From Branchiostoma floridae (Eukaryota > Chordata > Leptocardii > Amphioxiformes > Branchiostomatidae), in NCBI RefSeq assembly GCF_000003815.2, contig NC_049991.1:3530518-3594517 (forward strand): 64,000 nucleotides of DNA, written 5' to 3'. The translations under genes were made by a program, and so were the position numbers. Each line of letters opens with the position of its first letter. The first letter of the stretch is position 1. Below, one piece after another: positions 22,884-62,231 of this stretch. The notes below the pieces were generated by a model. The model saw only the letters and a program-made list of their open reading frames with translations, searched no databases and was not told the DNA's origin.

Positions 22884-24252
22884 CCACCTGCAGCAAAAAT
22901 CATATCCACGGTTTCTGTCATTTTTACTCATGTCTTTTACGAGTCAAAATACATAAATATGAATAAAATTATCCAAGTATAAATTCTGGAAGCATGTAAC
23001 GTTAACTTTATTTACCTGTAAGCCACTATGTAGCTCTATCACTCCTGTGTACCTTTACTCTTCATAGCCTATAGCAAGTGTTAAATACATCGAGGAGGTT
23101 ATATCCTCCTTCCACACATCAAGAAGACATCAAAGCGTTACAGGAAGAAAAGCGGTTGTCTTTTACTATATCCTTATCATTGCTGCACATTATGGGGAGA
23201 AGGTTTCCATGTGAACAAAGATTTAGCGTCTCTCTTGGCGTCTAAGAGAGAGGATTCATTAAACTTTCTTTTTAGGGCCCCCCGAGTGTGTTTGTGTTGG
23301 GGGGGGGGGGGTCGAACCATCTCCCTACGGGTAAGTTAAACCCGATGTCATCAGTGGCTAAAAATCGAGCCTGACGATGGCATTGCAGCTTTCGAATAAC
23401 TATTACACTCCTCATTCTGACGCTTTATCTGCTTTGTCTATACATGCATTGCGGTGAGGGGGCGACTAAATCTTGTACGCTTGCCTAACTTCTCTAGTAA
23501 CCAGCGCAAGCCGGTCACACTTTTGTTGCACGTCTATGTCTCCCAACCTTAACCGCCCAGGTTTCACGGCAACGCAATTCGCTGGGGAATTTCTCATTAA
23601 AACCGCATTACGCACGTTGCCGACTGGTTCAATTGGTGAGTACATGTACCGATATTCACGTATGAGTTTGCAGAGTATATAGTATGTACGTAAAAGATAA
23701 TTTTACAAATCTAAAGATACCAAGCTTACAAGCTTAAAACGAAAATCAGAGGAGAAAATCCAAGAAGTATTTGCGAGTAAAAATTTACGCTCAGAAATCA
23801 GGTTACGAACGTCCGAGCCTATAGGGCGACCTTCTGAAAAGCCCGCTAACATTCGATTGAGCTGCGTGCGTGGTTCTACGTGTCCACGTGCCCACTGGAA
23901 GGTAGATTGTATTACATAATTAGCATATTTTTGCCCGCGGGCATAAACAAACCCATAATGTCCCTTCATGCGTCCAACCTAAAATCCGTTTTATAAAGGA
24001 GTATCAAAGAGTACAGTTGACTGGTTCAAGGGTTTGATTGTTCTGCTTCAGAATGCAAATGATCTTCGATGATATCACGTGACCTTAAGTAACAGTGACG
24101 TCAGCAATTGGTAACAATTTCAGGAGGTGGTACGCGGTACGGCCCTGTTGTGTGATGGCTATCGTGCCCTGCATTGCATCGTTAAGGTGCCATTGTAACC
24201 ACCATTTAGGAAAATACTATTGGATGAAAACAAGATGTCTCGCTGTTTTCAG

Positions 24253-40144: not shown

Positions 40145-43100
40145 TCACATGCTGCCCCCTACCTGTTGGAGTGTGTTCTGCAGCAACATCAGAGTCTGCA
40201 CTGCCAGTTTCTGGCATTCTGCATCAGTGTCTTTCTCCAACACATCTTGGAAAAGAAGAAAACATAAGAATTTAAAAATGTTGCTAGCTTCTTGATATGA
40301 ATATTATAAGCACATGAATAAATATTTCATTTTTGAAAGTTCAAAGATGTACTGGTTTGGTGGGAATTTCAACAAAAAAATTCTTATTTTTAGCATCTAC
40401 GACATCTGTCATACCTTGTAGCCATTGCTGTCCTTCAAATATCTCCTCCTGGAGGTCAGAGGTCAAGACATGGGCGGGGACACTCAGGATCACCATGGAA
40501 ACAGCAAACAATAACGATTGCCTGACATACCTGGACAGAAAAACAAAACAGCTTCATAAGTCAACCAGTAAAAGTTTTTGCTATTAACAGTTTCCACACT
40601 CCAATATTAGGTTTGAGGTTCTTGGAAAATGTGCATCCGAATAAGAATTCGAGTGAGCGTGGCGCAACCATTGCAACAGGCCAGGCAGGACTGTCACTTG
40701 TATCTATGTCAAACCTGGGCTGCTATAACATCCCATACAGGTGTTCCAGATCTGGTGACAACAGTAGAAGCCTTAGTAATGTGATAACCCACGTTATCAC
40801 ATGTGGTTTTTATAGAATCATTCAAATGAAAAGTATGCGGCACTGTTGAAAATTCCAATAATAGATTCTGACATTGGAATTGCTGTAACAGTTGTTACCA
40901 TTTTCCTTTCAAGGACACAAAATTCTATGAATGTCTGGCACCTTTAGCATAAATGAAACAATGTGTTTTCTCGGGTGGGTATGACATAAATGAAATACAA
41001 CATGGCGTATTCCGCATCACCCTTGGTCCTAATAGCTTATTTGAGCTCTCCCACGGGTCGGATCACCCTGCAGGCTACTGGTGATCCTATCCACAGGGTG
41101 CTGGTGCCTCAGGTGATATGGATTACATTGTGTTGTATTCAATTATGTATCACCCTCAATGAAAGAGCCAAAATTGTATTTTCAGTGAAAAATCAAGATA
41201 AGAACTTACGGTTCTGTGTGGAAGCGTAGTACCCAGACAAACTCAAGTAGAGTTTTGGACATTTGTCTTGCAACCTGGTGCAAAAAAAAGCTTATCATAA
41301 ATAAAACATGATGGATGGATTTGTAAAATGACAGATGGATTGCATGGATTAATGGATGGACAAATGGACAGAAGATGAAAGTTTAAAACTACATGTACAT
41401 CAATGGTTACCGTCACGGTAGTAACTTCAGGAAATCAAAAGATGTAGTCATTACAAGCAAAACAAGAGCCATCTAGCACTCAAAAATCATGACCATAGGA
41501 TGTCCAGAACATGAGAATGATATTGTTTTATTTATTTATTTATTTATTAATCTTTAAGGGTATCAAAACAAGAAGTTCTGCTACAGTACCATAACACACC
41601 ACTAGGGGGCCTACAATCGATTTTCAAGGTCTTGTAAAGACCAACTATCAAAACAGCATCTAGGTGTTCACTTACATTATCCTGAGGTCAGACATCTATG
41701 TGTCAACAATCAAACAGCAGTCACTACAATACCTTCATTTCACAGAGGTTACAAGTAATAAAAAGAAGTGTTGAACCTACCATAGTGTTTGCAGCAGCAT
41801 ACAGTATTGCCCCTAATGAGTACACCAGTCTACCAAGCACCAGGGTATCCTCTCCTAACATGTCCAGGGTGTTCTGACGACTGGTTTACATGTGAACACA
41901 GAAGTTACATTTGTAGAATGTCCACTTGGCACTTTTTCATAATTGTGAAAGTCAGTCAATTAAAAATGAGCACCAGCAGAAATGACAGTTATTAGACAAA
42001 CTTTAACTTTTGTTTTTGGCATAAGATATACACTGTTATATACATGTATATATAATATATAGTATTTACTGATTGAATAATGTCTAAAGGATTATCATCT
42101 CTGAAGATCGAAACAAACTCAAACTGTTTGTTGACTTGAAAAGGGCTTTAGAAAACTTTTCAAAAGCTTTTTTCAAGTCAAGAAATAGTTTGACTACAAT
42201 TTACTCAATTGAAGCAAAGTTTATGATATCTATGTATGATAAATAGACTTTTACCTGTCATAGTTCTTGAGAAGTGGGAAAAAGAAGTGCCCAGCCACAG
42301 TGTGGAACTTGTTTGGTACTGGTGTTGGGTCAGGCTTGCTGGCTCCCTGGAACACACAACAAAGATCAAACCTGAGAATAATTTTACTAATCTCTTGCAA
42401 AATAATAATTCCGAACAAATATATGTATTGGTCATATTCATATAACTACATGTACATCACAGTATGCAATGCTACTATCTGGTTCGCAACAAAATAAAGA
42501 AAACATTTGAAATCTTCAGCTACTTATAAAACAGGCTAATTACTGATTAAAACGATCAATCACTTAAGCCTCTGTCACACATTTTGGACCTTACCACCAC
42601 TTTGCTCCTGACCACATCCAAAGCAAGGTTGGTACTGGGTTAGGAGTAGCCTGGAATTCCTATTATATTATAGCTCATGTCTGCTTCTCTGATTGCATTC
42701 AATATGACTTTCCTGACTACTTTTCAAAATTTACAGTTGTCTGGTACTGACGAATATAAATTTGAAAGACTATTGACATCTTTGCCTATTTAAGAACTAC
42801 CAATCACAGATGACCTTGCTCCTCACTAAAAGACCAAACCATGGTCTGGAGACGGTTGGAAGGCCATGGTTGGCTATAGCTATACCTTTGCAAATCTCCT
42901 GGTCTTCTTCTCTATCCTCTTCTGTACAACTTCCCTCCAGTGTTGGGGTTCCCTAGACTGATCATCAGGGGTAGGGAGTAGCTGTACCAGAGGTTCTGGT
43001 CTCGTGGCCTTCTTCTGTTCCATTGGCTGTGAAAGTTCTTGGGCTGCACCAACTAAAACCTGCATGTGGGGGTGTAAAGGGCAGAAATATTTTTCTCCAC

Positions 43101-46100
43101 AATTCATATCTTGTGATTATCTAGAAATTGGAAAAAAATGTTGGAAAACACAGTCAGCACCAGGGACAGGGAAACACAGTCAGCACCAGGGACAGGGAAA
43201 CACAGTCAGCACCAGGGACAGGGAAACACAGTCAGCACCAGGGACAGGGAAACACAGTTCACCAGGGACAGGGAAACACAGTCAGCACCAGGGACAGAGA
43301 AACACAGTCAGCACCAGAGACAGGGAAACACAATCAGCGCCAGGGACAGGGAAACACAATCAGCACCAGGGACAGGGAAACACAGTCAGAGTCAGGGAAA
43401 CACAATCAGCACCAGGGACAGAGAAACACAGTCAGCACCAGGGACAGGGAAACACAGTCAGCACCAAGGCGCTGTGCATATTGCATTCTTTATTTTGTTG
43501 GAAAATTTACAAACCTCTAACATATCCAGCCTTTGAATTATAGTGTAGTTTGGTGCGTAGAACTCACTGGTAAGATACTGAGAAACCTGTAAATGAAGAA
43601 ACAATATAATGTTCACTGACAAACACATAATATACAGTGTCAAATACTTTCTGCTTTTAAATATGAAACATAAATGTTGGTTTTGCTTACAGATTAAAAT
43701 GCTAGTACCTAATAGTACAATCACATAACATTAGTTCACCTTTATCCATGGGGTAACCTATATCCGTTGTGTTCAAAAACAGGGTATTTTGGGATATGAA
43801 GTGGACAGTAGTTTGAATTACAATATTCTCAGTTCATAAGAAAAATATTAGAAATATTGCAGTCGACTTGAAAACCTTTTATACCCAGTTTATTTCAGAA
43901 CAACGGATATAGGTTACCAAGCTAATAAAAGTGAACTAGCGTTACCTCTGCACATAAAAGAATCCAACAATTGCACACTTATCGAGAAGACTAGGGGTCA
44001 CCTAGTATGCATGGTTTAAATACGTGAGCCGAAGTGAAGCCACGTACACACGAAAAAGTGTTATCGTCTATTCATTGCTTCCTATTGAGTTATCTTATAA
44101 TTGCATAATTCAATCCACAACACCATAGCTACCTGCAAAGGACAGAAGACCGTTGTGGCCACCATGGCGCTTCTTCTGAGCCTGGTAAATTCTGGGATAG
44201 CAAAACTGTTCTGTAGATGCAGCAGAATTTTCACCAGTTCCACACAGACCTGTGGAGAGAAAAATATTTTGATAGAATGAAAAAAAAACACTTTATGCAG
44301 AATGTATTTTGATGAACTGTATTCAACAGTTTGGCATATTTGCATTGACTGTGCTTGGATGTGAACTTTTAAAAACTGTTAACATATTTTTATGAAAAAT
44401 TTTATATTCCATCCACTAATTGAAAGATGATTTTGGACTTTTTCCATTGTCTTACCTCTTCTAAGTTGTCAGGTTGTCTTCTCACCAGTTGTTCACACAC
44501 AGAGAGACATGCCTCAACTCTGTCTGCATCCTCATTGGCTATGAGACCTGAAAATAAAAGTAATTCCAACAGTTAAATCAGTACCCAATAATAGAATGCA
44601 GAAAGCATTAATATACAACGTTTTTTGTCGTGTTTATACTTTCAATGTTACTGTTTACAGTAGTACAGTAGAAGCCAGTTAATTGCACAACGCACCCTTC
44701 TGTTAACTGCATGGAATCCCCAAATCAGTGCGGTCCAACTAGATAACTTCGCATTATTGCACCAGCCGGATAATTGCATGAAATTCACTGGCAAATAGGC
44801 CGTGCAATTAAGTGACTTCTACTGTACATGAAAATGACAGAACTCATACAAAAATAGCAAACCACAGAGTCTGACTTGCCAAAATGAAAGCTCTCTTTCT
44901 ACACTATGTGCATGTCATTTCTAGCTAGCCTAAGTTGACCATGCAGTGAAGATAGCAAATGTGACCCCTTAACACACGTAAGACAGAAGATCCTTACCAT
45001 CGAGACAGTCTCTGATGTAGACAGGTGACTTGACCTTGGACATCTTAGTGTCTTCTGGCATGTCATATGGCTCAAGGTCATCATCACTGGAAAAATGTAA
45101 AGGTTAGAGCAGGTGTGAAACATAACATCTGTCAATCATCAATTCAATCATGTCTTTCAGCCAATCAAGGGTAACCATTTGAATAACAGCAAATGTGATT
45201 GGTCACTTGAGGCTTAACCCTCTCAGCACGAAAAGCCATTTTCGTGGCTTTCCCGTAGACCGCGAGAAGCCACGTACGGGGCTTCGTACGTCACGTTTTG
45301 GATTTTGAACTCCCTGCCCACCATCATGACGAATCCCACAACTAGAACGCTGGTAATTGTAAGAGAACCAATCAATCAGAAAACATACAGCATTTTGACT
45401 TCATTCAAACCTTATTTGAACGTAATCCAGACGCTAGATAATCATGAGTGCTTCAGGGGCTTCAGGGGCCTCATAGGCCGATAATGAAGATTTAGTGGAG
45501 GCTCCCACCAGCGGGGAAAGAGACGAACAACAAGGTAAACAACGGGGTTTTTTTGTTGAATATTAGCTGCTGTCTCTTCATGCCAGGTTTGCGGTTTCGT
45601 ACTGCTAATATCTAGCTGCATTTTACAGGTTTGCGATAGCAAACCTTTTTTTTTCAAATTTTTTTTTTTCAAATTTTTTTTTTTTTAGATATTGTCAGAG
45701 CTTGTAGTTATACTTATGTGAACATATAAATGAAAGTGGTTGGAAGTTGTACTATTTTTTAAATAATATTACTACAATTTTTCCTCAACAAAACAACAAT
45801 TTCACATGATAATACAACAATACAATTGTTCAACAACAAAACATGTGATTATTATAAACTATATTTTGGTTTTCTCCCCAGCATCCAGCAGTGACAACAT
45901 CGATGAAGAAGATGAGCAGTGTGAAGATGTTTGATGCCCATCACATAATACCAGCATTGCTCTTGTATTATAATGTATTTCTGTGTAGTTTCAGGATAAG
46001 TAAAGTATGTTTTTGCCCCTGAATGGACTTTTTATTTTGTGAGACATGTTTTTGTGTTGTTTTGCATATTGTGTTTTTGTTTATTGTGTACTATCAGATT

Positions 46101-49100
46101 GATGGTATGATGTTTATTTTGCTTTTATTGGAAAGGCCAGTCTGTGAGCTTTCCAGAAATATATAGTTTTCCTAGTCTACTCCTTACATAGCAGCTGTAA
46201 TAATAATTAACAAAAAGTACTAATTGACACCTGTATAGACTGAAATTATATGTCGTATATGGTATACAGGAAAAAATTTTATGACGTGCTGAGAGGGTTA
46301 AGCAACCAAAACACTGTCTTATAGTTGAGCAGTTGCGCATCTAAGGCTTAGGATAAATAAATGTGTTTCAGTTTACCAAATGGATCCAAGCAAAAACTGT
46401 TCACCCTTGCCTTTTTTTTGACAATAGCTGGAAAGAGACAAAACTTTACATCTGTCTCTTAGTGATGATACAGAAACAAAACAGAATTCCAAGAAGTGTT
46501 AAGATTATTCATATACTTGTGCTGGTATAATGTATATTTTGTTTCATAATAAAAATGATTACAACATGATTCTGAAAATAGCACGGTCCTATAATGCAGC
46601 TTTACATTGTTTCAACAATGTGTTAAAACTACATTAGGACCCTGCATGGTACAGTAACTGTTTAAAAACTGTAAATTAAACTATATTTGCTGGATCACTT
46701 TGATTGAAATCTAAAAAAAAGGAGAGATCCTACCTATAGTGACATTATTTCATGCATCAGAAACACTAGTACATTCAATCTTTCCATGCCAAACTTATAA
46801 TCACTTATAGGTTTCAAATTTCATTCACACTCATACCTGTCTAACTCAGAGTCAGAACCCTCCTTGCTTTGAGATGATGTCACCTTCCCTTCCTGACCAG
46901 ATGTTCTGGTAGTACCCTCCTTCTGTGGCAGTGAGGTTTTACTCATCAAGACTTCTTCTGTTTCCATATCTCCTTCAAGTTCATCTCCAGGGTCAGAAGG
47001 AGGCATGAGGAGAGAAAGTAGTCTTGAAGTTTCCTCGTCTTCCTCATACTAAAAAACAAACGGAACAAGAAACCTTGAAGTGAAATATTCAGGTTTTTGT
47101 GAATTCATTGTTTCATCTATTATCCTGAATTTCAATGGCACATGTATGATCTAGGTATAAATACTAGACTAAGACAGTATAGCATACAGCTTTCAGAAAA
47201 TGTCACTGGAAACAATATTCAGCAGGCAGAAAAAAGTATTACAAAAAAAATATGCATGTCATTGAGTAATGCCAATGAGTACCTCGAATTTGAGTTTCTG
47301 TCCATCAGGATCCACCATCTTTGTCACACTTTCTGCCACAATCATGCCCAGACGACGAATCTAGAAGACAATGTGGATAAATGTGAAATTCAATAGAGAA
47401 GCTTTTCAATAACAATTTAATCTAATGCAGTTTAATAAGCCAGAAATTATTCTGTCATTCATGTATGAACTGAAACTGAATATGTTAGGCAAAAACTTCC
47501 TTCCACAGCAAACTCCCTTTCCTTAGGCTTACCCAATATAGAAAATCGCAAACAAGCACCCCCCCCCCCCCATAAAATAAAAGCAAGCTCCATGCACTAG
47601 AAGTCTGCAAAGGACACTAGGAAACATGGTCATGTTTCATACCTTAATGACAGGACTGTCTATGTGATGCTGTACTCCCTCCAGAAGTCTTCTAATGAAG
47701 TCTGCAAGAAAGAGAGTAACATCAACATGAGGCATGAAGAATGAAACATTTGTCAGTGAGCAAAAAGACACAAGGATGTCTATTTTGCTTGATCAGCCCA
47801 CATTTTTATTTGGTTATGGGCTTTGCATACAGTTAACTGTAAAAACTGCTGAGAAAAACTACTGAGAAAAACAATGCCTTATAGATGGCCTTACCTTGCT
47901 TGTGTTCCTGTTTTTCCTTGCTGTTGAGATGTGAGAGTCCTGCCAGTATGGCTTTAGACAGGTACGCATGCTGGTCATAGGAGGTGTGTTTGATGGCACT
48001 GGAGTCACTCCAGACTTCTAACACTTTCACTAATGTCTGGGGAGAGTTGTTGGAGCTGTTAACATGACTTTGATAAACATTTACAATGACATGCCATTGG
48101 ATGGAAACATGACATGTGATATTATGGTGTAGTGTCCTTTACCACTGTAGCACTGGTACCCACATTGTAGAAACATCTGATTATTTTTACAGTGTTCACT
48201 CAATGATACTGTAATGGTTGAATGCAATTAGGAAATATTGAATTTTAGTGGCATTCTTCCATACCTCAATAAGAAGGTGTCTCCTGGTTGGTGAGTCTGC
48301 CAGGTAGCCCATAATATTCTGTACCACTCGATCCTGTTTAAAAAGACGTTATTGGTCAGAATTCTCAGACATTCAGCTGCAGGGAAAGCCACAATCACAC
48401 TTCTACTGCCTGCAATGCTGCTGTGTTATGCTAGAGGGTGCTCATGTGCTGGTAGATTGGGTAACAGATACTGCACCTGTTCATAATGCCTGATGAGGAG
48501 ACACTTGTGCGTTAGGATGTACTTCAGCTTCTGACTCCTGAGGACTCCATCTCCCAAAAGTCTGGACAGGGTGCCATACCTGGATCAATTTAGAAAAAAA
48601 TCACTTTGGCAATATAAAATATAAACATTGGATAAAATATAAAAATTGAAAATACATGTACAATACTCTACATTATTATACATCTACAAACTTTAGGTAA
48701 CAAGTAAAAAATTAATGAAAATACTTCATTTTGGACCTGGAATTAAATTTCCAATCTAACAACAGCCAGTCTTGCTTAATGATAAGATAAATAGTTGGAG
48801 CAAGTGTGACGCCAGAGTCCTGCACACCTGTGTACTCACCATGACACCTGTGTTACCAGGTGCACCACCAGGCTCTCCACACACCTGTTCTGTACACCTG
48901 TGTACTCACCATGACACCTGTGTGACCAGGTGCACCACCAGGCTCTCCACACACCTGTCCTGCACACCTGTGTACTCACCATGACACCTGTGTGACCAGG
49001 TGCACCACCAGGCTCTCCACACACCTGTCCTGCACACCTGTGTACTCACCATGACACCTGTTTGAGCAGGTCACCACCAGGCTCTCCACACACCTGTCCT

Positions 49101-52100
49101 GCACACCTGTGTACTCACCATGACACCTGTGTGAGCAGCTGCACCACCAGGCTCTCCACACACCTGTCCTGCACACCTGTGTACTCACCATGACACCTGT
49201 GTGAGCAGCTGTACCACCAGGCTCTCCACACACCTGTCCTGCACACCTGTGTACTCACCATGACACCTGTGTGACCAGGTGCACCACCAGGCTCTCCACA
49301 CACCTGTCCTGCACACCTGTGTACTCACCATGACACCTGTGTGACCAGGTGCACCACCAGGCTCTCCACACACCTGTCCTGCACACATGTGTACTCACCA
49401 TGACACCTGTGTGACCAGGTGCACCACCAGGCTCTCCACACACCTGTCCTGCACACCTGTGTACTCACCATGACACCTGTGTGAGCAGCTGCACCACCAG
49501 GCTCTCCACACACCTGTCCTGCACACCTGTGAGGAGTAGACAGCTGACCCGCTGCCACACGAAGTCCTGACGTGTCTGTCTGGTTAGTTTGGGTAGCAGG
49601 ACTCCCAAAACTAGACCTATGGGGACAAATCACACCCCAGTACTAAATCATTAACATTCAGTACCAGTTTAGCTTAATCAAGTCCAGGTTTAGGTCCAGA
49701 GAATTCATTTCAGGCACAGACCTGAACCTGGACTTGTATAGTTAAGATGTTTCAGCTTTTGTTAAACTGGTATAACATTCAATTGATATTTGAAAATAAT
49801 GCCTATTTCTCCCAGTTTTGTTTAATTGTTAATCTGGTATGATATTCAATTGATACTTGAAAGTTACACCTATTTCTTCCAGTTTTGTTTTTGTTAAACC
49901 GGTATATTAATATTCAATTGATATTTGAAAGTTACACCAGAAGTGCAGAGATCACATTCTGTCTTCCCGTCAACACCAGAAGTTTCGTAGACTAGGAAAT
50001 CGCCAGAGCAACATCCTTACTACCAGACTACGTCTTGGCTGGTGTCAGCTCAACTCTACGTTGGCTAAGTTCAACATCACAACCCGGAGCTGTGCTTGTG
50101 GTGCTACGTCCGAGACGGTTGCACACTTTCTACTTCACTGTCCTCTGCACACGGCTGCACGGCAAACCCTAGCTTCTTCAGTGCTCCAACTTGTCGGCCA
50201 GTCTCTCTCAACTGGAGTCCTCCTTAATGGTTCTCCAGGTCAAAACTCTGCTACAAACCAAAAACTCTCAGACGCTCTACATTCATTTTTAACATCAACA
50301 AACCGATTTACAGCACCTTCCATCTGCTCCTCATAGCTCACGTAGCCTATGTGGCCTATTATGTACATATGTGTAATTTAGATTTGTTTGTTGTATCTTT
50401 GTGGGTCAGCCGTCATCAGCTTGAATAGACTGCCTAGGCTGGCCCAGTGTAATGACTTGTTGTCATTTTCAATAAATAAATAAATTAAAAAAAAAAGAAA
50501 GTTACACCTATTTCTCCCAGTTTTGTTTTTGTTCAACCGGTATATTAATATTCAATTGATATTTGAAAGTTACACCTATTTCTCCCAGTTTTGTTTTTGT
50601 TCAACCGGTATATTAATATTCAATTGATATTTAAAAGTTACACCATTTCTCCCAGTTTTGTTTTTGTTAAACCGGTATATTAATATTCAATTGATATTTG
50701 AAAGTTACACCTATTTCTCCCAGTATTGTTGGTGACTAACAAGCAGTGGAGAAATTTGAAAAACTTGAATGTTCATCAAACATAGGCTAAATATCTTTTA
50801 TCAAACTCCAATACAGACAGATAAAAAAAGGAGGCATTCTGAGCGAAAATTGGAGAATAGATATAAGTAAAAAAAAACTGAAACTTAAGTTGTCATTGAC
50901 AAATTTCAGGGGTGTTTTTGTTACTCAGAGTCTGTTCTTGGATGTTGTGCCAAGTCTGTACCAGGTCCAGAGAACTGGTATCCACCCTTAGTTCACATTG
51001 ACCAAAAAACAAGTTGACACACTAGGAAAGATTAAAAACAAAACAAAAATCTGAATAAGAATTGACTACAGACAGATAGCCTTACCTGCATGCCCCTGAA
51101 GACACAGTTTCCCCAACAACAGCTGCAGAAAGGCCATGGAACAGTCCTGGGAAGCTGTACATGAGGAAATTGAGTAAAATAGGATAAATGCATTAAACAA
51201 AATGAGTTTGTTACAAATACATTGGGCCTTACACATACATGTACTTGTATGTGCATAACGTCCATATAAAAAAAAATTTATCCAGTTTACATTCACTGTA
51301 GGAGACATACCAGTTCAGAATCTGTTCATAAGGAGTACAGCCTTGTACACAATCAAGGAAAATTCACATGATACCAAGAACATTGTCTTCAACTTCACCA
51401 TGAGCTGACTTGAGAAGAATTGCATGCACTAATTCTTTAGAGACCACATTGCGATGGATAGTTGTATGTAAAGGTATTTTTTTTGTGTGTGAAATGGGGG
51501 ACAATATGATGTTATCTTTCTCACCTTTGATAGCACTGTAAACTTTCTCCAAAGTCTCCCACATGCTCAGAGCGAGAGACTGGAAATACTGCTCTGGAGA
51601 AAAGGCAGGACTGCAAAAATAATCAGTCATGGTAAAGACCTTAGTACACTTCCAACAAAAGCATTCAAGTTTGTAGTAGTATACTAGTACATCATTAAAT
51701 ATATGTGTCTGTCTGCCTGTCCGTCTGTCCATTTGTCTGCCTGTCCTTCTGTCTGTCTGTCTGTCCATCCGTCTGTCTGTCTGTCTGTTAAAGAATGAAA
51801 AAAAGCATTTCCTGACACCATAGATAAAAAAGTCAATAACCAACCGATTTCGCTGCTGTAATTTGTTGGCCATCCTGTCTGGAAGGGTCGCCAAAATCGT
51901 CACCAGCTCCTCCCACAATGCATTGTGCACCCTCGGTTGCCTCCTGCTGTCTGATTGGTTGGTCTGGATCATGTGACCTGTAGCTATGGTATTGCACTGC
52001 TCCCAGAACATGGATGTCATCTTGTTCTGTGTGAGAAACTGCTCCAGTAGAGAGACGCACTTGTCTTGTTTGTAGCTTGGGCTGCGGAAAAAGCAAATTA

Positions 52101-55100
52101 AAGCACTGTTATTATGTTCATCTCTTTCACCATGTAAGGCTTTCAGTAAAAATACATCGACATTTTGACATGAAATGGCTGATCATCACTTGACCTATCT
52201 GTTTACAGACCTGTAAGAATAAGTAGATCAACTTCTAAATAGGAACCCCTCTGAACATATTCCCTAAAACAAACTCTTTTTTTGCCACACCACAATTCCA
52301 TTCTGATCACATGACATAAGTTTTGGGTTACCGGTAATATCGATATTTGGGTTTTCGTACCACTGTTCTGTCGAAATGTCGCTTTGTCTACAACAATTGT
52401 TTCGGTATAATTATGAGTTTCCCTAGATCTTGCAGCGCAACTGAAATGTTCGTGTGCAATCATTCCGATACCTTCAACGCCAGATGGCGTAAACAGTGCC
52501 ACTCCTTTGTACATAGGCTTGTCAATTCTACTAATACCATTATACAGTCCGTACTTACGTCCGACTCTTTTTACAAGAACTCATTTTTCACCAATCTCTG
52601 GCGCCGCCTCTACACATAGCCATAATATTGTCAGTTTGTCTTAAAATGTTGTACATATTCTTTGTTTTTCATGTTTGTCCCTACGTCATATGGGCCAGTG
52701 AGAGCCTGAAATAAAGAAATAATAATATCTAACTTGAGAAGGACCAGAGGACTGATGGAAAGCTTGTGGCTAAGTTAGTGCTCGAATTTGTGTGCGGATA
52801 ACGTTACAGGTACAACATGTAAAATCTCTACAAAGTACAATGCTGCTTACTATCACAGATGAACTTTCATTCAAACTGAATAGTTGTTCTTCACTCAGTC
52901 AGAGTATTGGGTAAAAAGACTAAGACAGCCTCGTCTGTGAAAATGAAAGTGTCTGAAAAAAAAACGCCATCTAAGAGACTGGACAGATTCATACAAGTGT
53001 CTTTTCAACACAGTCTCTTCTCTTACGCAAGTACAATGATTAAAGATAGACTATAATACAAAAGGTGTGCAAAATGAGTACAAAATACATAAACTTGATG
53101 ATGCAACTTGGAAATTATTAAGGTAAAGTCCAGAGTTCAATTCAAGGGGCTTGTTTGCCGATGGCCGCATGCCGTCGGTGTCTTCTTTCAGAATCCTTGA
53201 CCTATCATATCCTATGAGACAGTTCACTACAGGCAAGGCATTTAACTTACAGGACAATAACAACTTTTTTAGGTTTTAGATACTAGTATAAAAACTCTGT
53301 CAATGCAACATTTTGGGCTCAGGTGTCAAAGGCTTTATAACAGCACTTTTTAGCTCTTACTCTATAGAACATGATCCGAGCAAAAGGTCAGTGGATAGTT
53401 TCATCCGGTTGATACACACTTACAGCAGTTAACCCTTCCAAAGCTCAGTCATACAGATGAAGCACAGGAGAAATGCAGGAGAAACACACCAGGCATAAAA
53501 AGAGCTATTTCTTGTGTGTATCCTGCCTTTTTTACCCAGTCAGAGAGGTTCTAATGTTTGTTTTAGAGGACATACAACGGACAACTTTCCTTTTCGCCAA
53601 TTAGAGACAGTGAATCTTATGTGTGTCTCTTGTGATTCCTGGTAATCAGTCACACCCTAGGAGGAGAGATGGGCTGAGCTGATGGTCAACAGGCTCTTAT
53701 CCTTACAGTCTTTGCAGCTGATTAAGTGTGAAAAATCAATTATCACGGAAATTAGCTATGATTCCATTGGCTTTCCCTTCTGTTTCCCTCAGCCATGCAT
53801 GGGAATCACATTGGAAAAGTGTTCCTGTATGCATCAACTGTATGACTGAGCTTNNNNNNNNNNNNNNNNNNNNNNNNNNNNNNNNNNNNNNNNNNNNNNN
53901 NNNNNNNNNNNNNNNNNNNNNNNNNNNNNNNNNNNNNNNNNNNNNNNNNNNNNCAGATAGAGTGTAGAGACTGATGCACCCAGCAGAACAAACTAAGCCA
54001 TTTTTAGCTTACTTAGAATAGTTTAGTCCCCCTCCCACACCTATGGAACAGTCCACGCATGCGGACTGGAATTTCTAGGGGCTTATGTTAATAAAACGCT
54101 GTTACGTCTGTGTGTGCGGTTGATTATTCCCTGGCAGCAGAGGGATTAAGAGGCCGAAAAACAGCCATGTGACTTACAAATTGTCCATGTTCTTTATTTC
54201 CTTTCGTTTTGATTGTTTATGTATTTTTCACAGGACCTGTAAGGCTGGGTGGCAGTATATTCCTGTAGTTCCACCTGCTTGAGCCAGACTATTCTGCCTT
54301 GAGTTGAAAGGTGAAATGCATGAATTATGTCTGAATCAATTCATTTCATTTTCATATGATTTCCTTTCATTTTAATGCATTATTCACAGGACCTGTGGAG
54401 CCCAGTATATGTAATTCCTATAGTGCAGGCTGCTCGAGCAAGGACTATATAAAACATTAAACGCTAGTTCACCTTTATCCGTAAGGTGACATTTATTCAT
54501 TCTTTTTAAGAACAACGTATTGAGGGGTATAAAGTCGACAGATGGTGGCCGGTTTCAAACTGCAATATTTTGAAAATACTTGTATCACAATTTTGATTCA
54601 TTTAACTACTGTCCATCGACTTCATGTCCCTTGATACCCCCTTTAGCAGCACAACGGACATAGGTTACCCAGCGAATAAAAGTGAACTAGCGTTATATAA
54701 CATCCTTGGCTCAAACCAGACTAATCTGCCTCGAGTTGAAAGGTGAAATGCATATTTCATTTTATTTTATATATTTTCACAGGACCGCTGAAGCCCGGTA
54801 TATTCCTCTTGTGAAAGCTCCTCAAGACAGCCTTATCTGCCTTGAGTTGAAAGGTGAGATGCAACAAGTATGGTGGAATTATTAGTGGTAAAATTCTTGG
54901 CTCTTGTGAGTATCTGAAGAATCAGTAGGAAGGTTTGTCGATATAGGTTAGACATCCGGGTAATAAGATACGCCAAAAAATAGTAACTCAAGCAACTGGA
55001 TATGGTTTTGGAAACGGTCATTTCAACTATAACATCTATTATCATAATACCGGTATACGTTTACGACGATTTCTCTAGCCATACTGATTTGACAAATTGT

Positions 55101-58100
55101 CAACGCATCATTTTCTCCAGTTACATGTTGCTGTTATAGGTTACCCTTGCCACTTCTTCTATGTAACTTTTCTGCCACTCTTGTCCTGCTAAAAGCGTAA
55201 TATTGTAATAGTAACACGCCGCGGAATTACACGGCGAACAGGCGCGTGGTTGGGAGGGGGTACAAAATACCGGTAGGAAGAAACACGGCACAATTAACTG
55301 CCGCTATGTACATTTATACATCCTCTGATGTTCCTTCCTTTTCTGTCAGTAAATGCATAAAACATAAACCTGCATGAGCATACAAAATGTCATGAGAAAA
55401 CGGACGTATACTGTCAAGAATTTTCATTTAACTTCTGTCCGTCACAACCGCTATGACGTAACACTTCACTGCTAGCGTAGATATAAAAATGGCGGGAAAA
55501 TGGTTGCGTACGTTCAATTTTGCCCATTCAGTCGTAGATCCGGGCTATTATGCACCGGTTCTTCACACTTTTACATGAGTTGAAGGCCACCAACAGAAAT
55601 TCAAGATTGTTGTTGAATCATGTTCGTCTTGTGCCGTGAGCATGTGTAATTATGATCTATATAAATTTGGCAATGAATGTGACAGTGTGTTCGTCCCACG
55701 ACGAGCTGCCTACCTCGAAATTTAAAAAAAAGTATACTGAAAACTTTTGGCCTTGTTGTCTTCGAATGCATTGTTATCGATGCTTTGTAAATGGTGTATT
55801 GGACACCTAGATGTCTGAAGTGTGCACAGCTCAGAAATAACTATTTTTGCATGTGTAGATCTCTTTAAGTTCCAGTATTTTTAATCTACCGGTATAAGTC
55901 TTACTACCGGTATTATGCCAATGCATGTTACTATCCAGTAGTTTTCATCAATTCGAGGGTTTATACATCCTGGCTGTGAATTGATATATGTAAATGAGAT
56001 CTAGTTGAAGAATAGGTTTATCTTAACAATGAAACCTTTGTAGCCTTTTTAACTTTTGGACCCTGAAAAATTGTCTTCAACCCATTTTTGCATTATGTTT
56101 CAAAGTTAGGATAAACAATGTTCTTCAACTAGATCTCTTTTATATATATCAATTCACAGCTAGGATACATAAACCCTCTCCAACAAGATCTCTTCGGTGT
56201 CACTGATGAAAACTACTGGCTAGCAGTCGAAACGTCTGACCATTTCCAAAACCATATCCAGTTGCTTCAGTAACTACTTTTTGGCTAATCAGTAGGAAGG
56301 TCTTCAATAGAGGCAAAATTCCTATAATACCTCGATAAATGGCCCTAAGGTTCTTTCATCTTCTGTTTGAGAACGTCAAGGTAAAACTAAGTAATTCTAA
56401 GCTTCGAGCAGGTAGTATAGGCTGTTGGATACAGGGTGCTATGATATATACTGCCCTGCAGCTGAGATGGGGTCAGCCTTTTTACCGGAAAACAGAGGAA
56501 AACACAGTTAAACACCGGAAAACACATGAAGAAGTGTATAATCTACTGAAATACAGTATGTTTTGATGAGTAAACATGACAGGTCGCTATGTTTTGCCAC
56601 AGAATAATCTACATATGGCCCTGGAATGATGAGAAAATGCATGAGACGACGGGCCGGACCGCCGCCACCCGGCGGCCATGTTTGTTTTCATTGCAGAATA
56701 CATGATACTTTCACAACAAGACAGCTGATACCTACCGAACTTCAGTGCAAAAATCTGTTATATATTGGCATAAATATAATATATATGAATCTACTCGGAT
56801 TGTGATAAGAATCTGTTTTCTGTATTTCTTAATAAAGCTTGCTTCTTCTAGCCGTCAACGTTACATAATTTTGCACAATCAGCACGTCCAGTCCGCCGGG
56901 TGGCAGCGGCGGTCCGGCCCGTCGTCTTATGCATTTTCTGACGATTTCTTCATTCCAGGGCCATACCGGGGTATGTAGATTATTCTGTGGCAAAACATAG
57001 CGACCTGTCATGTTTACTCATCAAAACATACTGTATTTCAGTAGATTATACACTTCTTCATGCGTTTTCCGGTGTTTAACTGTGTTTTCCTCTGTTTTCC
57101 GGTAAAAAGGCTGACCGGCTGAGATGGGCATTATTGGGATGGCGATTGCATTAAAAAAATACAAAAAAATCATTTGCAGAATGGCTGCTGTAAGACACAA
57201 CAGAAACCCTACAGTCTTGCAGCATACGGACTTAAAAAGGAAGTTGTCTCCTGCTCAAGATGAAGATTCTACAACGTCAAAAGTTGATAGTCTCAAAAAG
57301 CTTCACAATGACCTTCAAGTCCTTGGCTTCAATAAGGACTTTGTTCAAGAAATCCTTGACTTACCAGAAGACATCAGAGAGCACAGAACAGAAGAAGCAT
57401 GGATTCATCGAGTAATGCAGCAATGGTATGATGGTAAAGTATGTGAAGTAGACGATGACGTCATAAGTCTCACTTCTGATTCTCTAGCAGCAATAGGGTT
57501 CCGTCGTGGTACAATACAGAAAATACTACAGTCAAACCTGTCTATAGCGGCCACTCAAGGGACCGGACAAAATTGGCCACTATAGACAGGTGGCCTCTGT
57601 ATAGAGGTGGCAACTTGTAGATACAATACCCAAGGGACCGACAAAAAGTGGCCACTATGGACAGGTGGCCCCTCTGTAGAGGTGGCCCCTAATACAGGTT
57701 TGACTGTAAATAGAATCCCAGAGCAGCTCAGGTCATATCAGCCCACAATCTACTGGGCAAAACGAATCATAAGTGATGATCTGTTTCACTTGCAGAATGA
57801 GTGTTCAAAATACCCTTTTCCAGAGACACCTCTGAACCAAATCACCCCATGGCCACAGCAAGATCAGTCCGCTTTTCCTAATGGGTTGAAATATATCAAT
57901 CTGAAAAAGTTCAGTCGTGGCTCTAGGAGTGTAGGAAGCCATACCACAACTCTGACAGGTTTTCCTATTGCTAGAGAAGACGAAATGATCCTGTATCATG
58001 CCACATCGCATCAGTCAGTATCTGACATTCTCGAAAATGACATTGTCCTAAAACGAGGAAACAGTTGTGTTGACTTCAGCGATGACTATGGTTTTTATTT

Positions 58101-61100
58101 GGATAACGATATTGATAGCTGTTACGGCTTTGCAGATTTTATGAGTGCACAAGCTATCCTGGTGTACGTGGTGAACGAGGCAATGTTTACCAACAATATG
58201 TTAGATCTTTTGGAGAATGAGGAGCTCTGGAAAGAGGTTGTGAAGTGCCACAGGCTTGGCAAAGCGAAGGCAGTCAGTAGGTTGAACCCAAACGGCAAGC
58301 CTTACAGTGATTATGATGTTGTATTTGGGCCATGGTGCAGAAATGTTGACAAGGTTATCAAGGGACACGAGCCACAACAAAACAGACACCAGCTCCAGTA
58401 TTTGGTCCAAAATGAGGAGTTGGCAGGCAGACTGCATCAGTCCCTGAAATGTGTTTTGTTTTTCCCTAAAAAGTAGTTTTAATAGGTCTGGAGAAGAACC
58501 CTTTTCAGAGACAGAGTGCAAAGGCATCAAACTTTTGCAACAGTAGGGGCTTGCTCCCCGGGAAAATTTGAAATCAATGACCCTCTAAAACGCCATTTCC
58601 TACATTTTGAGGGGCAAATTTTGCTGTCAGACGAGTAGATAAATCTGTATATATTTTGATACATTTGATAACTAAACAATTTTAAATGTCCTCATAATGA
58701 TACAATTTTTAAGACTTTATATCCGTACACAAAATAAAGCGCTTACCAACAAGCTTTCGATCAGTCCACTGATCCTTCTCAAGTTGTAATGACCCAAAAC
58801 CTAAGTCACACTTCCGGAACGGAATATCATTATGTTAACTACTGTCACAGATGAACTTACATTCAAGTTTAAATGTCCTCGTCATGTTGTCCATGTTACA
58901 ACTATGTTAGTACATAATTCATTAAGCAATTCAGGGCCAATTTCTAAGTCCTGCTAATCTGTACTTTTAATGGACCAAATAGACCTTTATGATTGTTGTT
59001 GTTGTTATTATCATTATTATAATTATTATTGTTGTTATTATTATTATTATTATTACTATTATTGTCATTGTTATTGTTATGATTATTATTATTATCATTA
59101 GAGACTGAATTAATGAACTCAAATCATGTCTCTTGCTATTATGTATTTCGTACCATGTTTTTTTATGTAAAATTGTAACATGCATTGGCATAATACCGGT
59201 AGTAAGACTTATACCGGTAGATTAAAAATAATGGAATTTAAAGAGATCTACACATGCAACAATAGTTATTTCTGAGGTATGCACACTTCAGACATCTAGG
59301 TGTCCAATACATCAATTACAAAGCACCGATAACAAAGCATTCGAAAACAACAAGGCCACACGTTTTCAGTTCTTTTTCGGGGCAGGCGAGCTCGTCGTGG
59401 GACGAACACATTGTCACGTTCAGCGCCGGATTTGTAGATAATAATCACACGTGCACACGGCACAAGACAAGCATGATTCAACAGCAATCTTGAATTTCTG
59501 TTGGTGACCTACAACTCGTGTAAAAGTGTGAAGAACCGTTGAATGATAGCCCGCACTACGGCTGAACGGGCGGAATTGAACGTACAGCGCCATTTTCCCG
59601 CCATTTTTATATCTACGCAAGTAATAAAGTTTTACGTCATATTAGCGGTTGTGACGGACCAAAATTAAATGAAAATTCTTGTCAGTATACGTCCGTTTTC
59701 TCATGACTTTTTGTGTGCCTATGCAGGTTTACATTTTATGCAATTACTAACAGGAAAGGAAGGAACAAAAGAGGATGTATAAAGATAAATAACGGCAACT
59801 AAAGGATTATTGTGCCGAGTTTCTTCCTACCGGTATTATTCCACCCCCTCCCGAGCACACGCCCGTTCTTGGTGCATTTCCGCGGTGTGTTACGATTGCG
59901 ATATTTCGTTTTCAGCGGGACAAGAGAAACAAAAAAAGATACACAACATTAGTGGCAAAGGTAAGCTTTAATATCGACAGTTAACTGAAGAAAAAAGATG
60001 CGCTGATCATATGCCAAATTCATGTCGCTTGAGAAACTGCAGTAAACCTACCGGTATTATGCCAATGCATGTTACATATAGACTTATAAGACTCATTAGG
60101 ACTTTTAATGACGTGAACTGTATCTCTGTTAAAGTTATATACTTTGTCTGACCCTTGCCTCTTCCCTCATAACCTCAATGAAAAGGGCGATTTGAGCTTT
60201 CATGAATGAACAAAGGACCAAACAAAAAACAATAATCACATTAGTTTAGTTCACTAATCCCAGCACAGCAGCATACTGGGCCTGATAGGGCATCACAATC
60301 CACATGTGAAAATTTCAAACCACAACTGCCGGGGAAATGACTATGTTTACTTTGCACTTGCACAAATCATCATCGGTTTACAAATTTACGGCATCCAAAG
60401 TGTGGGAAATATTTTTGTGTAGGCCTGGCTCTTCAAAACAGAGGTGGGATTTTTCCATGTTGACTTAAGTTGAAATCAACTGTAGCCAATAAGGTCTTGC
60501 ACTGGGCAGGGTGGGGGATGACATGCTGGGCGTTGGGTCATTAATCACAGCACTGACCAGCCCCTCTTGGATGCTCTGCATGGCAGGCGACACCAGACGG
60601 AAAGGGTAGCGATAACTCCTTCGGGCTTAAACTCCCCCAGAGCACTAATGTGAGATCTGCGGGCTGACCGCCTTGGGTCCCCAAACAAAACTCGCTAGCT
60701 ACCCGGTCCTGTCTGGCTCCCAGGGTAACCTTATACCTTCAAGATTAAGTAACAAAAGATTGTTGTTATGATATTTTTATAAAAGACAAGGTTATATATT
60801 TGTACAATAACTTTTATATATATCAAATGTATGTTGAAAGAAAATGAATGTATATTTGTATTGATGAATGATTATGTAATGTCATAATGATGTTGTTTTA
60901 ATAGCGCAAGTCAAGTACATGTAACCTTACAGTTACAGCACTCCATAAACTACAGGTATCCAACATGTGGCATATTTCAGGCAGGTAACACTTAGTCTAG
61001 TTTACCTTTATCCATAGGGTAACCTTTATTCGTTCTTTTTAAGAATGATGTATTCAACTGCAAAATTTTGAAAATATCACAATTTGAAACTACCATCCAT

Positions 61101-62231
61101 GGACTTGATAGTCCCTGGATGCCGTGTGTAGCAACACAACGGATATAGGTTAACCCATGGATAGAGGTGAACTAACGTTATATCATTCTATAGTTGTACA
61201 ACAACATGATCTATATAATGCTAGCTCACCTTTATCCGTGGGGTAACCTATATTCATTGTATTTGAAACCAGGGAATTTAGCTATAGGGATATAAACTCA
61301 CATGTGCAAATTAAGAGTACCTTATATATATTACAGAACTCATTTATGAGTGCCAAGACCACAGAACTCACATTTGCATTATGAGTGCCTTACTACAGAA
61401 CCACAATTATGTACATTATGAGTGCCAAGACTATAGAACTCACATGTGCATTATGAGTGCCTTACTACAGAACCATAATCATGTGAATTATGAGTGCCTT
61501 ACTACAGAACCACAATCATGTGAATTATGAGTGCTTTACGGTATGATTACATTGCTTGACGTTGTAACGTGCCAAAATATGACAAAGAAACCAATGCTGA
61601 ACTGTTGTCTGGTTTCATTATTTCAACAACTTGTCTTGAATGCAGGACAGCTCAGTCATTTCCATTTCCCAAACAAAGAACTACTTTGAGATACATCTGT
61701 CCACCGCTTGTTGAAAAATTTCAGGAATGCTGAAAAGGGCATATACATAACGTTAACTCTACGTGGGGGGTACAATTGTTGTCTGTACTCCACTGATGAA
61801 GGCAAATGTCACTGGTGAATTAAGTGGGTTACTAGTAAGTCTATGGGCCAAGGTCACAAACAAATGTCATACCTTGTATTCTGAACAGCAGAGGTGAGCA
61901 CAATGAAAGCATCCTGGTGTACTCCATCCAGAAAGAAGCGGTCAAGCAGTTCTCTTCCTCTCTCTTCTCCCAACCTTCCCAACCAATCAACCGACAGCTT
62001 ACTGATCAAAAACTCCAGGAAACTCACATAGTGATGCAGTGAAAACTCCTTCCTTGCTTCAGGAAGTTCCGAGTCCGGAAAGTCTTGGTTTTTGGAAGTT
62101 TTGTCATGAGGAAGAAGCACTGAGAGTCTTAGAAGACCTTGTGAGACTTCTGAGGGGTTCTTAGATGTAGAGAGAGTGTTCTGGACTTCCCAGACTAGCT
62201 GTCTAACCTGAAGTTTTGTGTCTCCAGACAT
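40145..62231 (-). CDS. TELO2: TELO2 (telomere maintenance 2) homologue, complete
   Basis: TEL2 subunit of the TTT complex (TELO2-TTI1-TTI2), which works with HSP90 and R2TP to stabilise PIKK kinases such as mTOR, ATM, ATR and DNA-PK. Coding exons: 62231-61873, 52081-51845, 51610-51525, 51154-51086, 49616-49469, 48579-48477, 48333-48266 (one end may be off by a base), 48036-47895, 47701-47643, 47360-47283, 47048-46837, 45086-44998, 44547-44456, 44249-44133, 43586-43515, 43059-42886, 42346-42255, 41880-41781, 41274-41210, 40530-40415, 40245-40145. Phases join throughout; about 859 residues, near the human length. Diagnostic stretches: SSAIKHTSYDQHAYLSKAIL, RRLGMIVAE, the acidic SDSELD-SDDDLEPYDM linker with serines where CK2 sites occur in mammals, YLTSEFYAPNYTIIQRLDML, HTVAGHFFFPLL, LLEFVWVLRFH. 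The final exon reads through a possible donor to TGA. Confidence 0.95.
43141..43466 (+). repeat. 28-bp minisatellite in TELO2 intron 15
   Basis: About twelve copies of a 28-bp unit (cagtcagcaccagggacagg plus gaaacaca), some shortened by 6-10 bp. Open frames through it in three phases are produced by the unit length and are not genes. Confidence 0.95.
43728..43945. mobile_element. 'ctagttcacc' MITE family copy
   Basis: Left end ttagttcacctttatcc and ggggtaacctatatccgttg; right end acggatataggttacc, then agtgaactagcgtta. It lies in intron 14 of TELO2. Confidence 0.8.
44666..44824. mobile_element. Pogo-like MITE, TA target duplication
   Basis: Ends cagtagaagccagttaattg and, reversed, cagtagaagtcacttaattg, flanked by TA (44664-44665 and 44825-44826). 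159 bp, no protein. It lies in intron 12 of TELO2. Confidence 0.8.
45218..46297. mobile_element. piggyBac-like deletion derivative, TTAA-flanked
   Basis: Ends ccctctcagcacg and its exact reverse complement, flanked by TTAA (45214-45217 and 46298-46301). Near the right part, about 45889-45935 on the + strand reads an acidic stretch (SSDNIDEEDEQCEDV) ending in a stop, similar in style to the acidic N-terminus of piggyBac transposases; no catalytic domain remains. 1080 bp, in intron 11 of TELO2. Confidence 0.83.
48823..49531 (-). repeat. 70-bp tandem array carrying TELO2 exon 5 end and its splice donor
   Basis: Ten units of 70 bp (one of 69). Each carries, on the minus strand, the last 50-odd bases of coding exon 5 (VQDRCVESLVV...LTQVS) plus the donor tg|gtgagtacac. 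Donor motifs sit at + coordinates 48832, 48902, 48972, 49042, 49111, 49181, 49251, 49321, 49391 and 49461 (start of gtactcacc). The first unit met by the transcript (49461-49531) is the true exon end; it joins in phase to exon 6. Reading past it meets TGA in the donor itself. Confidence 0.93.
49745..50715 (+). repeat. About 66-bp tandem repeat, split by a LINE insertion
   Basis: Units share cctatttctcccagttttgt, aaccggtatattaatattca and attgatatttgaaagttaca. About three units lie before 49939 and three to four after 50496. It lies in intron 4 of TELO2. Confidence 0.85.
49939..50496 (+). pseudogene. LINE 3' end insertion, 5'-truncated
   Basis: A + strand open stretch (about 50061-50336) has the Cys/His pattern found at the C-terminus of many non-LTR retrotransposons (CACGATSETVAHFLLHCPLH). 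A 3'UTR with gtgggtcagc and a tail aataaataaataaattaaaa plus poly-A follow. A 12-bp target duplication gaaagttacacc flanks it (49927-49938 and 50497-50508). Length and truncation fit target-primed reverse transcription. Confidence 0.85.
51709..51789. repeat. GTCT tetranucleotide microsatellite
   Basis: Imperfect gtctgtctgcctgtcc units over about 80 bp, in intron 2 of TELO2. Confidence 0.93.
52300..52727 (+). pseudogene. LINE ORF2 C-terminal fragment
   Basis: About 90 codons on the + strand (to the stop at 52617-52619) resemble the extreme C-terminus of a LINE polyprotein (CSATEMFVCNHSDTFNARWR, FVHRL, FFTNLWRRLY). The 3'UTR-like sequence ends gagcctgaaataaagaaata. It lies in the first coding intron of TELO2, antisense to it. 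Confidence 0.7.
52730..54225. other. Intronic stretch of TELO2, no feature recognised
   Basis: No domain-bearing ORF and no element ends that I can pair. The run of N at 53854-53953 interrupts it. Confidence 0.5.
53854..53953. other. Assembly gap (100 N)
   Basis: Run of 100 N within the first coding intron of TELO2. Confidence 0.99.
54230..54860 (+). repeat. Three tandem copies of a roughly 130-150-bp repeat, one split by a MITE
   Basis: Each copy starts tcacaggacc and ends tgccttgagttgaaaggtga with a following tgcat or tgcaa. The second copy is interrupted by the MITE at 54459-54695. Confidence 0.75.
54459..54695. mobile_element. 'ctagttcacc' MITE family copy, most complete
   Basis: Ends aacgctagttcacctttatc and, reversed, aacgctagttcacttttatt. 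Interior aaagtcgacagatggtgg resembles the other copies. It interrupts a tandem repeat, which gives independent evidence of insertion. Confidence 0.83.
55027..55936. mobile_element. 0.9-kb DNA element, left copy
   Basis: Reverse-complement match over its whole length to 59176-60068. Ends contain cataataccggta and taccggtattatg in inverted arrangement. Shared internal phrases include cggttcttcacacttttaca and, on both copies, an ATG-poor interior with no recognisable transposase. It is nested in a further inverted pair (about 54955-55022 and 56230-56296). Confidence 0.75.
56471..57117. mobile_element. Palindromic element with 10-bp target duplication (MULE-like)
   Basis: Arms of about 200 bp are inverted copies (left end ggtcagcctttttaccgga, right end its reverse complement) around a spacer of about 200 bp. 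The direct repeat gctgagatgg flanks it (56461-56470 and 57118-57127). Long inverted ends with a 9-11-bp duplication suggest a Mutator-like MITE. It lies immediately upstream of the ART-like ORF. Confidence 0.75.
57124..58476 (+). pseudogene. Possible ADP-ribosyltransferase-fold protein, ORF cut by a MITE
   Basis: Two same-frame ORFs, 57124-57585 and a continuation open from 57586 to 58476, are separated by one TAG inside a 178-bp MITE (57529-57706). A likely start is the ATG at 57181, just after a tttgcag acceptor-like site. The N-terminal part (to about residue 115) is helical-looking and unrecognised (LHNDLQVLGFNKDFVQEILD). The C-terminal half has LYHATSHQSVSDIL, then DDYGFYLDND, FADFMSAQ and ILVYVV. 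This order resembles the His and Tyr strands of PARP/DUF3990-type ADP-ribosyltransferases, but I cannot place the third catalytic residue with confidence. The gene is antisense to TELO2 in its first intron, and is probably inactive or dependent on splicing out the MITE. Confidence 0.55.
57529..57706. mobile_element. Pogo-like MITE inside the ART-like ORF
   Basis: Ends cagtcaaacctgtctatag and, reversed, cagtcaaacctgtattag, flanked by TA (57527-57528 and 57707-57708). Same family as 36898-37377. Insert plus duplication is 180 bp, a multiple of three; it brings one in-frame TAG (57583-57585). Confidence 0.85.
58995..59100. repeat. (ATT)n/(GTT)n microsatellite
   Basis: Imperfect trinucleotide run attatt/gttgtt over about 105 bp. 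Confidence 0.93.
59176..60068. mobile_element. 0.9-kb DNA element, right copy
   Basis: Perfect terminal inverted repeats of at least 20 bp: gtaacatgcattggcataat followed by accggta on the left, and its reverse complement on the right. It is the inverted match of 55027-55936. No transposase is visible, so it is a non-autonomous element of unassigned superfamily. Confidence 0.8.
60430..60740. other. GC-richer stretch, possibly a dispersed repeat
   Basis: Composition differs from its AT-rich surroundings (gcaggcgacaccagacgg, cggtcctgtctggctccc). No ORF or second copy is seen in this window. Confidence 0.3.
60991..61180. mobile_element. 'ctagttcacc' MITE family copy
   Basis: Left end ctagtttacctttatcc and agggtaacctttattcgtt; right end acggatataggttaaccc, then aggtgaactaacgtta. 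Shortened in the middle. Confidence 0.75.
61218..61295. mobile_element. 'ctagttcacc' MITE family, left-end fragment
   Basis: atgctagctcacctttatcc and ggggtaacctatattcattg, without a matching right end. It lies 38 bp after the previous copy. Confidence 0.65.
61295..61545 (+). repeat. About 38-bp tandem repeat with irregular units
   Basis: Repeats of attatgagtgcc(tt)actacag and aaccacaatcatgtg-type segments, about six units of variable length. Confidence 0.8.

Follow-up and report, generated by a model that had tools for sequence, protein, structure and literature searches.

Within a 64-kb window of the genome of the lancelet Branchiostoma floridae (64,000 nucleotides of NC_049991.1, whose first letter is position 1 in all coordinates below), the fifth coding exon of the gene TELO2 ends in a tandem array of ten units with a period of 70 bp. 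The unit nearest the 5' side of the transcript, unit 1, is the coding end of the exon together with an in-frame 5' splice site, or donor; units 2-10, nearly identical to it, lie wholly within intron 5 if donor 1 is used. We consider it likely that a minisatellite of the type called a mirage, a tandem repeat spanning an exon-intron boundary, arose across the exon 5/intron 5 border, grew into the intron and has been tolerated there, in a gene that is essential in the animals studied. This reading is supported by the array with its identical donors, an open gene, a protein conserved across the splice junction and the mirages already published.

The array and the gene that carries it

The features concerned are listed here; exon 5 denotes the fifth coding exon of the gene model, which covers coding exons.

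40145..62231, minus strand: TELO2 coding region, 21 exons, coding sequence of 2580 nt, 859 aa (gene model, PDB match)
49469..49616, minus strand: TELO2 exon 5, 148 nt, of which the final 58-63 nt are the first unit of the array (GT-AG borders, open frame, homology)
48580..49468, minus strand: intron 5, 889 nt, of which 652 nt are array, followed by 237 nt at 27% GC (gene model)
48477..48579, minus strand: TELO2 exon 6 (gene model)
48817..49531, minus strand: 70-bp tandem array, ten complete units with partial ends (Tandem Repeats Finder, unit listing)
49457..49526, minus strand: unit 1, the coding copy, 58 coding nt and then the first 12 intron nt (unit alignment)
48828..49456, minus strand: units 2-10, the nine copies in the intron, each with a decoy donor; unit 7 is 69 bp (unit alignment)
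49463..49471, minus strand: inferred productive 5' splice site ATG/GTGAGT, the slash marking the border, intron start 49468 (in-phase join to exon 6)
49508..49516, minus strand: exonic CAG/GTGTGT, GT at 49513 (donor matrix and frame test)

Tandem Repeats Finder describes the array as 715 bp long, with a period of 70, 10.2 copies and 97% matches, and its score of 1332 is the highest among the 27 rows for the window, which excludes an origin by chance. Copies of the donor ATG/GTGAGTAC are found on the minus strand at 49468, 49398, 49328, 49258, 49188, 49118, 49049, 48979, 48909 and 48839, so that successive GTGAGT donors are spaced by 70 nucleotides eight times and by 69 once. An earlier reading, made from the sequence only, had described ten 70-bp units, each with the last "50-odd" coding bases of the exon and an intact GTGAGT donor. 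Ten units are indeed present and each does copy the exon end, with the donor 9-mer ATG/GTGAGT the same in 10 of 10; however, unit 7 measures 69 bp, the units are 91-100% identical to one another (pairwise mean 96.6%), and the exact composition is 58 exon bases plus 12 intron bases (57 plus 12 in unit 7). Nine of the 70 aligned columns are variable, none of them inside the donor 9-mer, and the array contains no N. Its GC content as a whole is 0.58, compared with 0.54 in exon 5 ahead of the array and 0.27 in intron 5 after it.

The TELO2 model runs from 62231 to 40145 with GT-AG borders at all 20 introns and a single, terminal stop; intron 1 includes 100 N. Its translation matches PDB 7f4u_A, "Telomere length regulation protein TEL2 homolog", which we take to be the human protein, over residues 54-851 (E=3e-175, 588 bits), and the other PDB matches are two further chains of the same TEL2 name and nothing else. 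The gene carrying the array is therefore TELO2, as the sequence-only reading had named it, and appears intact. When exons 5-7 alone are compared with 7f4u_A (E=1.4e-12), the exon 5/6 junction made from donor 1 aligns without a gap. Because the protein match crosses this junction ungapped, exon 5 is placed at 49616-49469 with unit 1 as its end; that the exon might end elsewhere had been named as a possible refutation, and on homology the end at donor 1 is upheld.

Reading frame and choice among the donors

Joined to exon 6, donor 1 alone of the ten GTGAGT donors gives an open, in-phase product, while read-through past it meets a TGA at 49467-49465. With each of the nine later donors (9/9) the codon following TGG is a stop, the TGA that overlaps donor 1 (TG/G TGA), and this premature stop sits 66 to 625 nt upstream of the new junction. 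It had been predicted both that the 5'-most unit joins exon 6 in phase and that any later donor adds a premature stop, and both predictions stand. The accompanying description of ten equal donors with only the first productive is true of the ten GTGAGT sites but understates the number of candidates. Using a matrix derived from the other 19 donors of the gene, we scored 138 GTs between base 21 of exon 5 and a point some 20 nt short of the 3' end of intron 5, and 40 of them reach the threshold of 5.3. The frame is kept by four of the 138, and just two of these, 49468 and 49513, are among the 40 that are donor-like. Use of 49513 would leave an exon 5 of 103 nt, in frame and 15 residues shorter; the protein alignment favours 49468. 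Donor-like words that recur along the array are CAG/GTGTGT (10 times), CAG/GTGTCA (10 times), CAG/GTGTGC (9 times) and CAG/GTGTAC (once, in unit 10).

A stronger first donor can be ruled out as the mark of donor 1, all ten 9-mers being identical. Donor, upstream exonic context and an exon-like GC content are all common to the decoys, so that neither strength nor composition marks the first site. RNA structure hiding the decoys was considered and dropped: donor 1 ranks first, first and second among the ten for predicted accessibility in three settings, but these depend on one another and the margins are small (0.081 versus 0.079 for the runner-up, 0.064 versus 0.050, and 0.036 versus 0.044 for the best).

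The invariance of the donor needs no selection, since nine variable columns placed at random would spare the 9-mer with p=0.27. A test for selection on a 21-base stretch gave p=0.03, on which we do not rely, as the stretch was not fixed beforehand, its label and size do not match and there is a variable column at +12. Nor can the position of the array serve as proof of function. In 200,000 random placements within the gene span, an interval of 715 bp contains a splice site in 48%, and one of the two edge units of such an array straddles a splice site in 21%, so the coincidence of array and splice site is less remarkable than its appearance suggests. When the 40 splice borders of TELO2 were scanned for copies (40-base words, 800 nt either side, ungapped), a nearby copy was found at one of the 40, the exon 5 donor border, where 40 of 40 bases are identical against a shuffled maximum of 23.

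History of the units and rival explanations

The units fall into two main types. Variant A, with G at -21 and C at -17, is found in units 1, 5 and 6, and variant B, with C at -21 and G at -17, in units 2, 3, 4, 8, 9 and 10; unit 7 has C at both positions and one base deleted. In translation, B-type units read HLV where exon 5 has QLL. No difference separates the coding unit 1 from unit 6, or units 3, 4, 8 and 9 from one another; unit 10, at the intron edge, is the most divergent, with three private changes. Since unit 1 equals unit 6, the A and B variants are interleaved and unit 7 is mixed, we infer that copies have exchanged sequence or been duplicated in blocks, the functional copy included. 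Outside the array, similarity to the unit was not detected in the rest of intron 5 (p 0.71), exon 6 (p 0.24), exon 5 before the array (p 0.42) or the last 300 nt of intron 4 (p 0.17), and short-word BLAST at E 0.01 returned no copies elsewhere in the window.

In our proposal, short ACAGGTGT motifs at the end of the exon and the adjoining start of the intron would have let the array form through slippage or unequal exchange. Growth would then have extended it into the intron, where extra copies would be harmless to coding as long as the outermost donor is used. Splicing may commit to this donor, which is transcribed first and closes an exon of normal size (148 nt), the rest being removed as ordinary intron; a transcript spliced from a later donor would contain the TGA and be broken down. 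Since an array that began wholly within an exon would change the protein sequence, those seeded at exon borders may simply be the survivors among exon-derived arrays. Drift under the tolerance of splicing, one of two outcomes that the sequence-only reading had offered, fits better than tuning by decay.

Several points weigh against a tolerated mirage that is spliced at its outermost unit. The use of donor 1 is itself deduced from frame and homology. On the gene's own matrix ATG/GTGAGT scores 6.3, 16th of the 20 donors (the other 19 being favoured by their presence in the matrix), and CAG/GTGTGT, present in each unit, scores higher at 8.8. Pairing with the 5' end of U1 ranks the two words oppositely, at -8.7 kcal/mol for ATG/GTGAGT, the fifth strongest of the 20, and -7.2 kcal/mol for CAG/GTGTGT, so the two measures disagree. 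Composition also fails to single out donor 1, the GC content falling to 0.27 past the last decoy. When duplicated 5' splice sites are equal, the choice can fall by default on the copy closest to the 3' splice site, and this would predict aberrant use of the array donors. The units, moreover, show the mirage pattern of a homogenised core with the edges left out in mixed form: units 3, 4, 8 and 9 do not differ from one another and unit 10, at one edge, is the most divergent, yet unit 1, at the other edge, is the same as unit 6. Finally, in PGBD5 a predicted exon inside the repeats is set aside by the authors without RNA data (PMC3902484), so clean splicing is not proved for every published mirage.

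There is also an outside chance that the array is a natural test bed for 5' splice-site choice in a stronger sense, in which selection enforces a first-come or exon-definition rule on ten identical tandem donors with near-identical exonic context, the first to be transcribed being the only productive one; the intronic copies may in addition be a conversion reservoir able to write coding variants back into an essential gene, B-type units changing QLL to HLV. Should RNA show clean use of donor 1, TELO2 would join the genes that tolerate mirages and would offer a sharp natural experiment on how the spliceosome chooses among equal 5' sites, because the copies have donor, exonic context and GC content in common and differ mainly in position. 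Should RNA instead show leakage, array length would be a natural variable setting TELO2 dose.

One alternative to a tolerated mirage is that the assembly is partly at fault, in that a genuine array has been collapsed or expanded in copy number or combines two haplotypes. The window does hold runs of N, including those in intron 1, and there are precedents in a globin mirage judged aberrantly assembled in the draft genome (PMC3087553) and in PGBD5 repeat counts that differ between two presentations of the lancelet genome (PMC3902484). We nevertheless regard this as improbable: the private variants of the TELO2 units form an ordered pattern, one unit is a 69-mer and the array is free of N, and the PGBD5 repeats themselves were confirmed by re-examined Sanger and Illumina data (PMC3902484).

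A second alternative, the other outcome offered by the sequence-only reading, is a copy-number rheostat, in which decoy donors lead to the TGA after codon TGG and so to nonsense-mediated decay, and array length sets the dose of TELO2. The stops produced by the nine later donors all lie beyond the 50-55 nt of the nonsense-mediated decay rule, 15 further exon junctions follow downstream in the model, and the donor 9-mer is held identical in every unit. This invariance is, however, readily obtained by random placement of the variable columns, donor 1 hardly stands out from the decoys in predicted accessibility, and mirages elsewhere are reported not to give aberrant mRNA (PMC3087553, PMC3902484). 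The proposal is thus unsupported and we hold it to be very unlikely.

Slighter still is the prospect that the array is an intermediate in intron gain, its AG/GT-bearing units being raw material for new exons or introns, for although CAG/GTGT and GTGAGT words recur across the units and both the model in PMC3087553 and a case in potato RdRp offer precedents, the end of intron 5 and exon 6 show no relation to the unit (p 0.71 and 0.24), so that intron 5 itself was not detectably made by tandem duplication, and a 58-nt unit exon would by arithmetic shift the frame.

Other repeats and open reading frames (ORFs) of the window are recorded here. In TELO2 intron 4 a 67/68-bp minisatellite (49757-49938 and 50497-50730) is seemingly interrupted by a LINE-like 3' end; gaaagttacacc flanks this insert on both sides as a possible target-site duplication, though the minisatellite itself repeats gaaagttacacc, and an ORF at 49929-50333 has a weak zf-RVT match (20.7 bits, under the cutoff of 27.5). 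Intron 15 contains a 26-bp minisatellite of 12.7 copies (43146-43466), about 50 nt from the exon 15 donor, whose border is not copied. Within intron 1 but on the opposite, plus strand, an ORF of 296 aa (57586-58473) matches DUF3990 at 25.7 bits, under the cutoff of 32.2. Outside TELO2, arrays of 10-bp units at 751-883 and 2142-2283, with units CGAAAAGGAA and CGTTCCTTTT, seem to be nearly the reverse complement of each other. There are three related ORFs (8256-8711, 16831-17385 and 24228-24818), and the two of them that were scanned, 8256-8711 and 24228-24818, gave no Pfam hit at E 0.01. A C-type lectin match of 17.1 bits, short of the 22.6 cutoff, comes from an ORF at 18559-18954, cytochrome P450 exons lie on the plus strand at 32334-35558 (Pfam PF00067 in 3 of 3 pieces scanned), and a Mos1-type transposase remnant lies on the minus strand at 21053-21376 (HTH_48, 43.2 bits, cutoff 24.1).

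Comparison with known mirages and with intron gain

The term mirage was applied to boundary-spanning tandem repeats in the lancelet globin genes BflGb6 and BflGb9, and that report also cites mirages in Adh3 of two Branchiostoma species and mentions further loci (PMC3087553). Unit lengths there are 10-72 bp in Adh3 and about 150-160 bp in the globins, and haplotypes with 6 and 3 units are reported (PMC3087553). Many mirage units carry splice signals and thus potential cryptic sites, but the Adh3 data and globin reverse transcription PCR suggest that regular splicing is left undisturbed; the globin mirages were in addition proposed as raw material for new exons and introns (PMC3087553). A second report describes a mirage of 60- and 108-bp repeats in PGBD5 and cites one in troponin C (PMC3902484).

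Tandem-duplication intron gain, in the AGGT model, likewise involves the duplication in tandem of a segment lying across an exon-intron border. In TELO2, however, no new intron is seen, the extra copies apparently lying inside an existing one, and the two splice sites do not detectably derive from copies of one segment, since similarity to the unit was found neither in exon 6 nor in the remainder of intron 5 (p 0.24 and p 0.71).

The likeness to the mirages of Adh3, BflGb6, BflGb9, troponin C and PGBD5 is closer: they and the TELO2 array are minisatellite-like, with a unit that spans an exon-intron border (here 58 exon and 12 intron bases in ten units) and splice signals copied in many units. 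The BflGb9 mirage, like ours, copies the 3' border of an exon, and a unit of 70 bp falls within the Adh3 range. In keeping with the description of the PGBD5 case, the authentic border is in the outermost unit and the inner units are intronic, as the in-frame donor 1 and the ungapped homology indicate. Among the literature matches listed, no title concerned a TELO2 array; the gene name was used in one of the searches, which listed 12 of 16 papers. The TELO2 array differs from published mirages in its gene and in its ten near-identical units, but it is a member of an already described kind, a point absent from the sequence-only reading, and not a new kind of thing.

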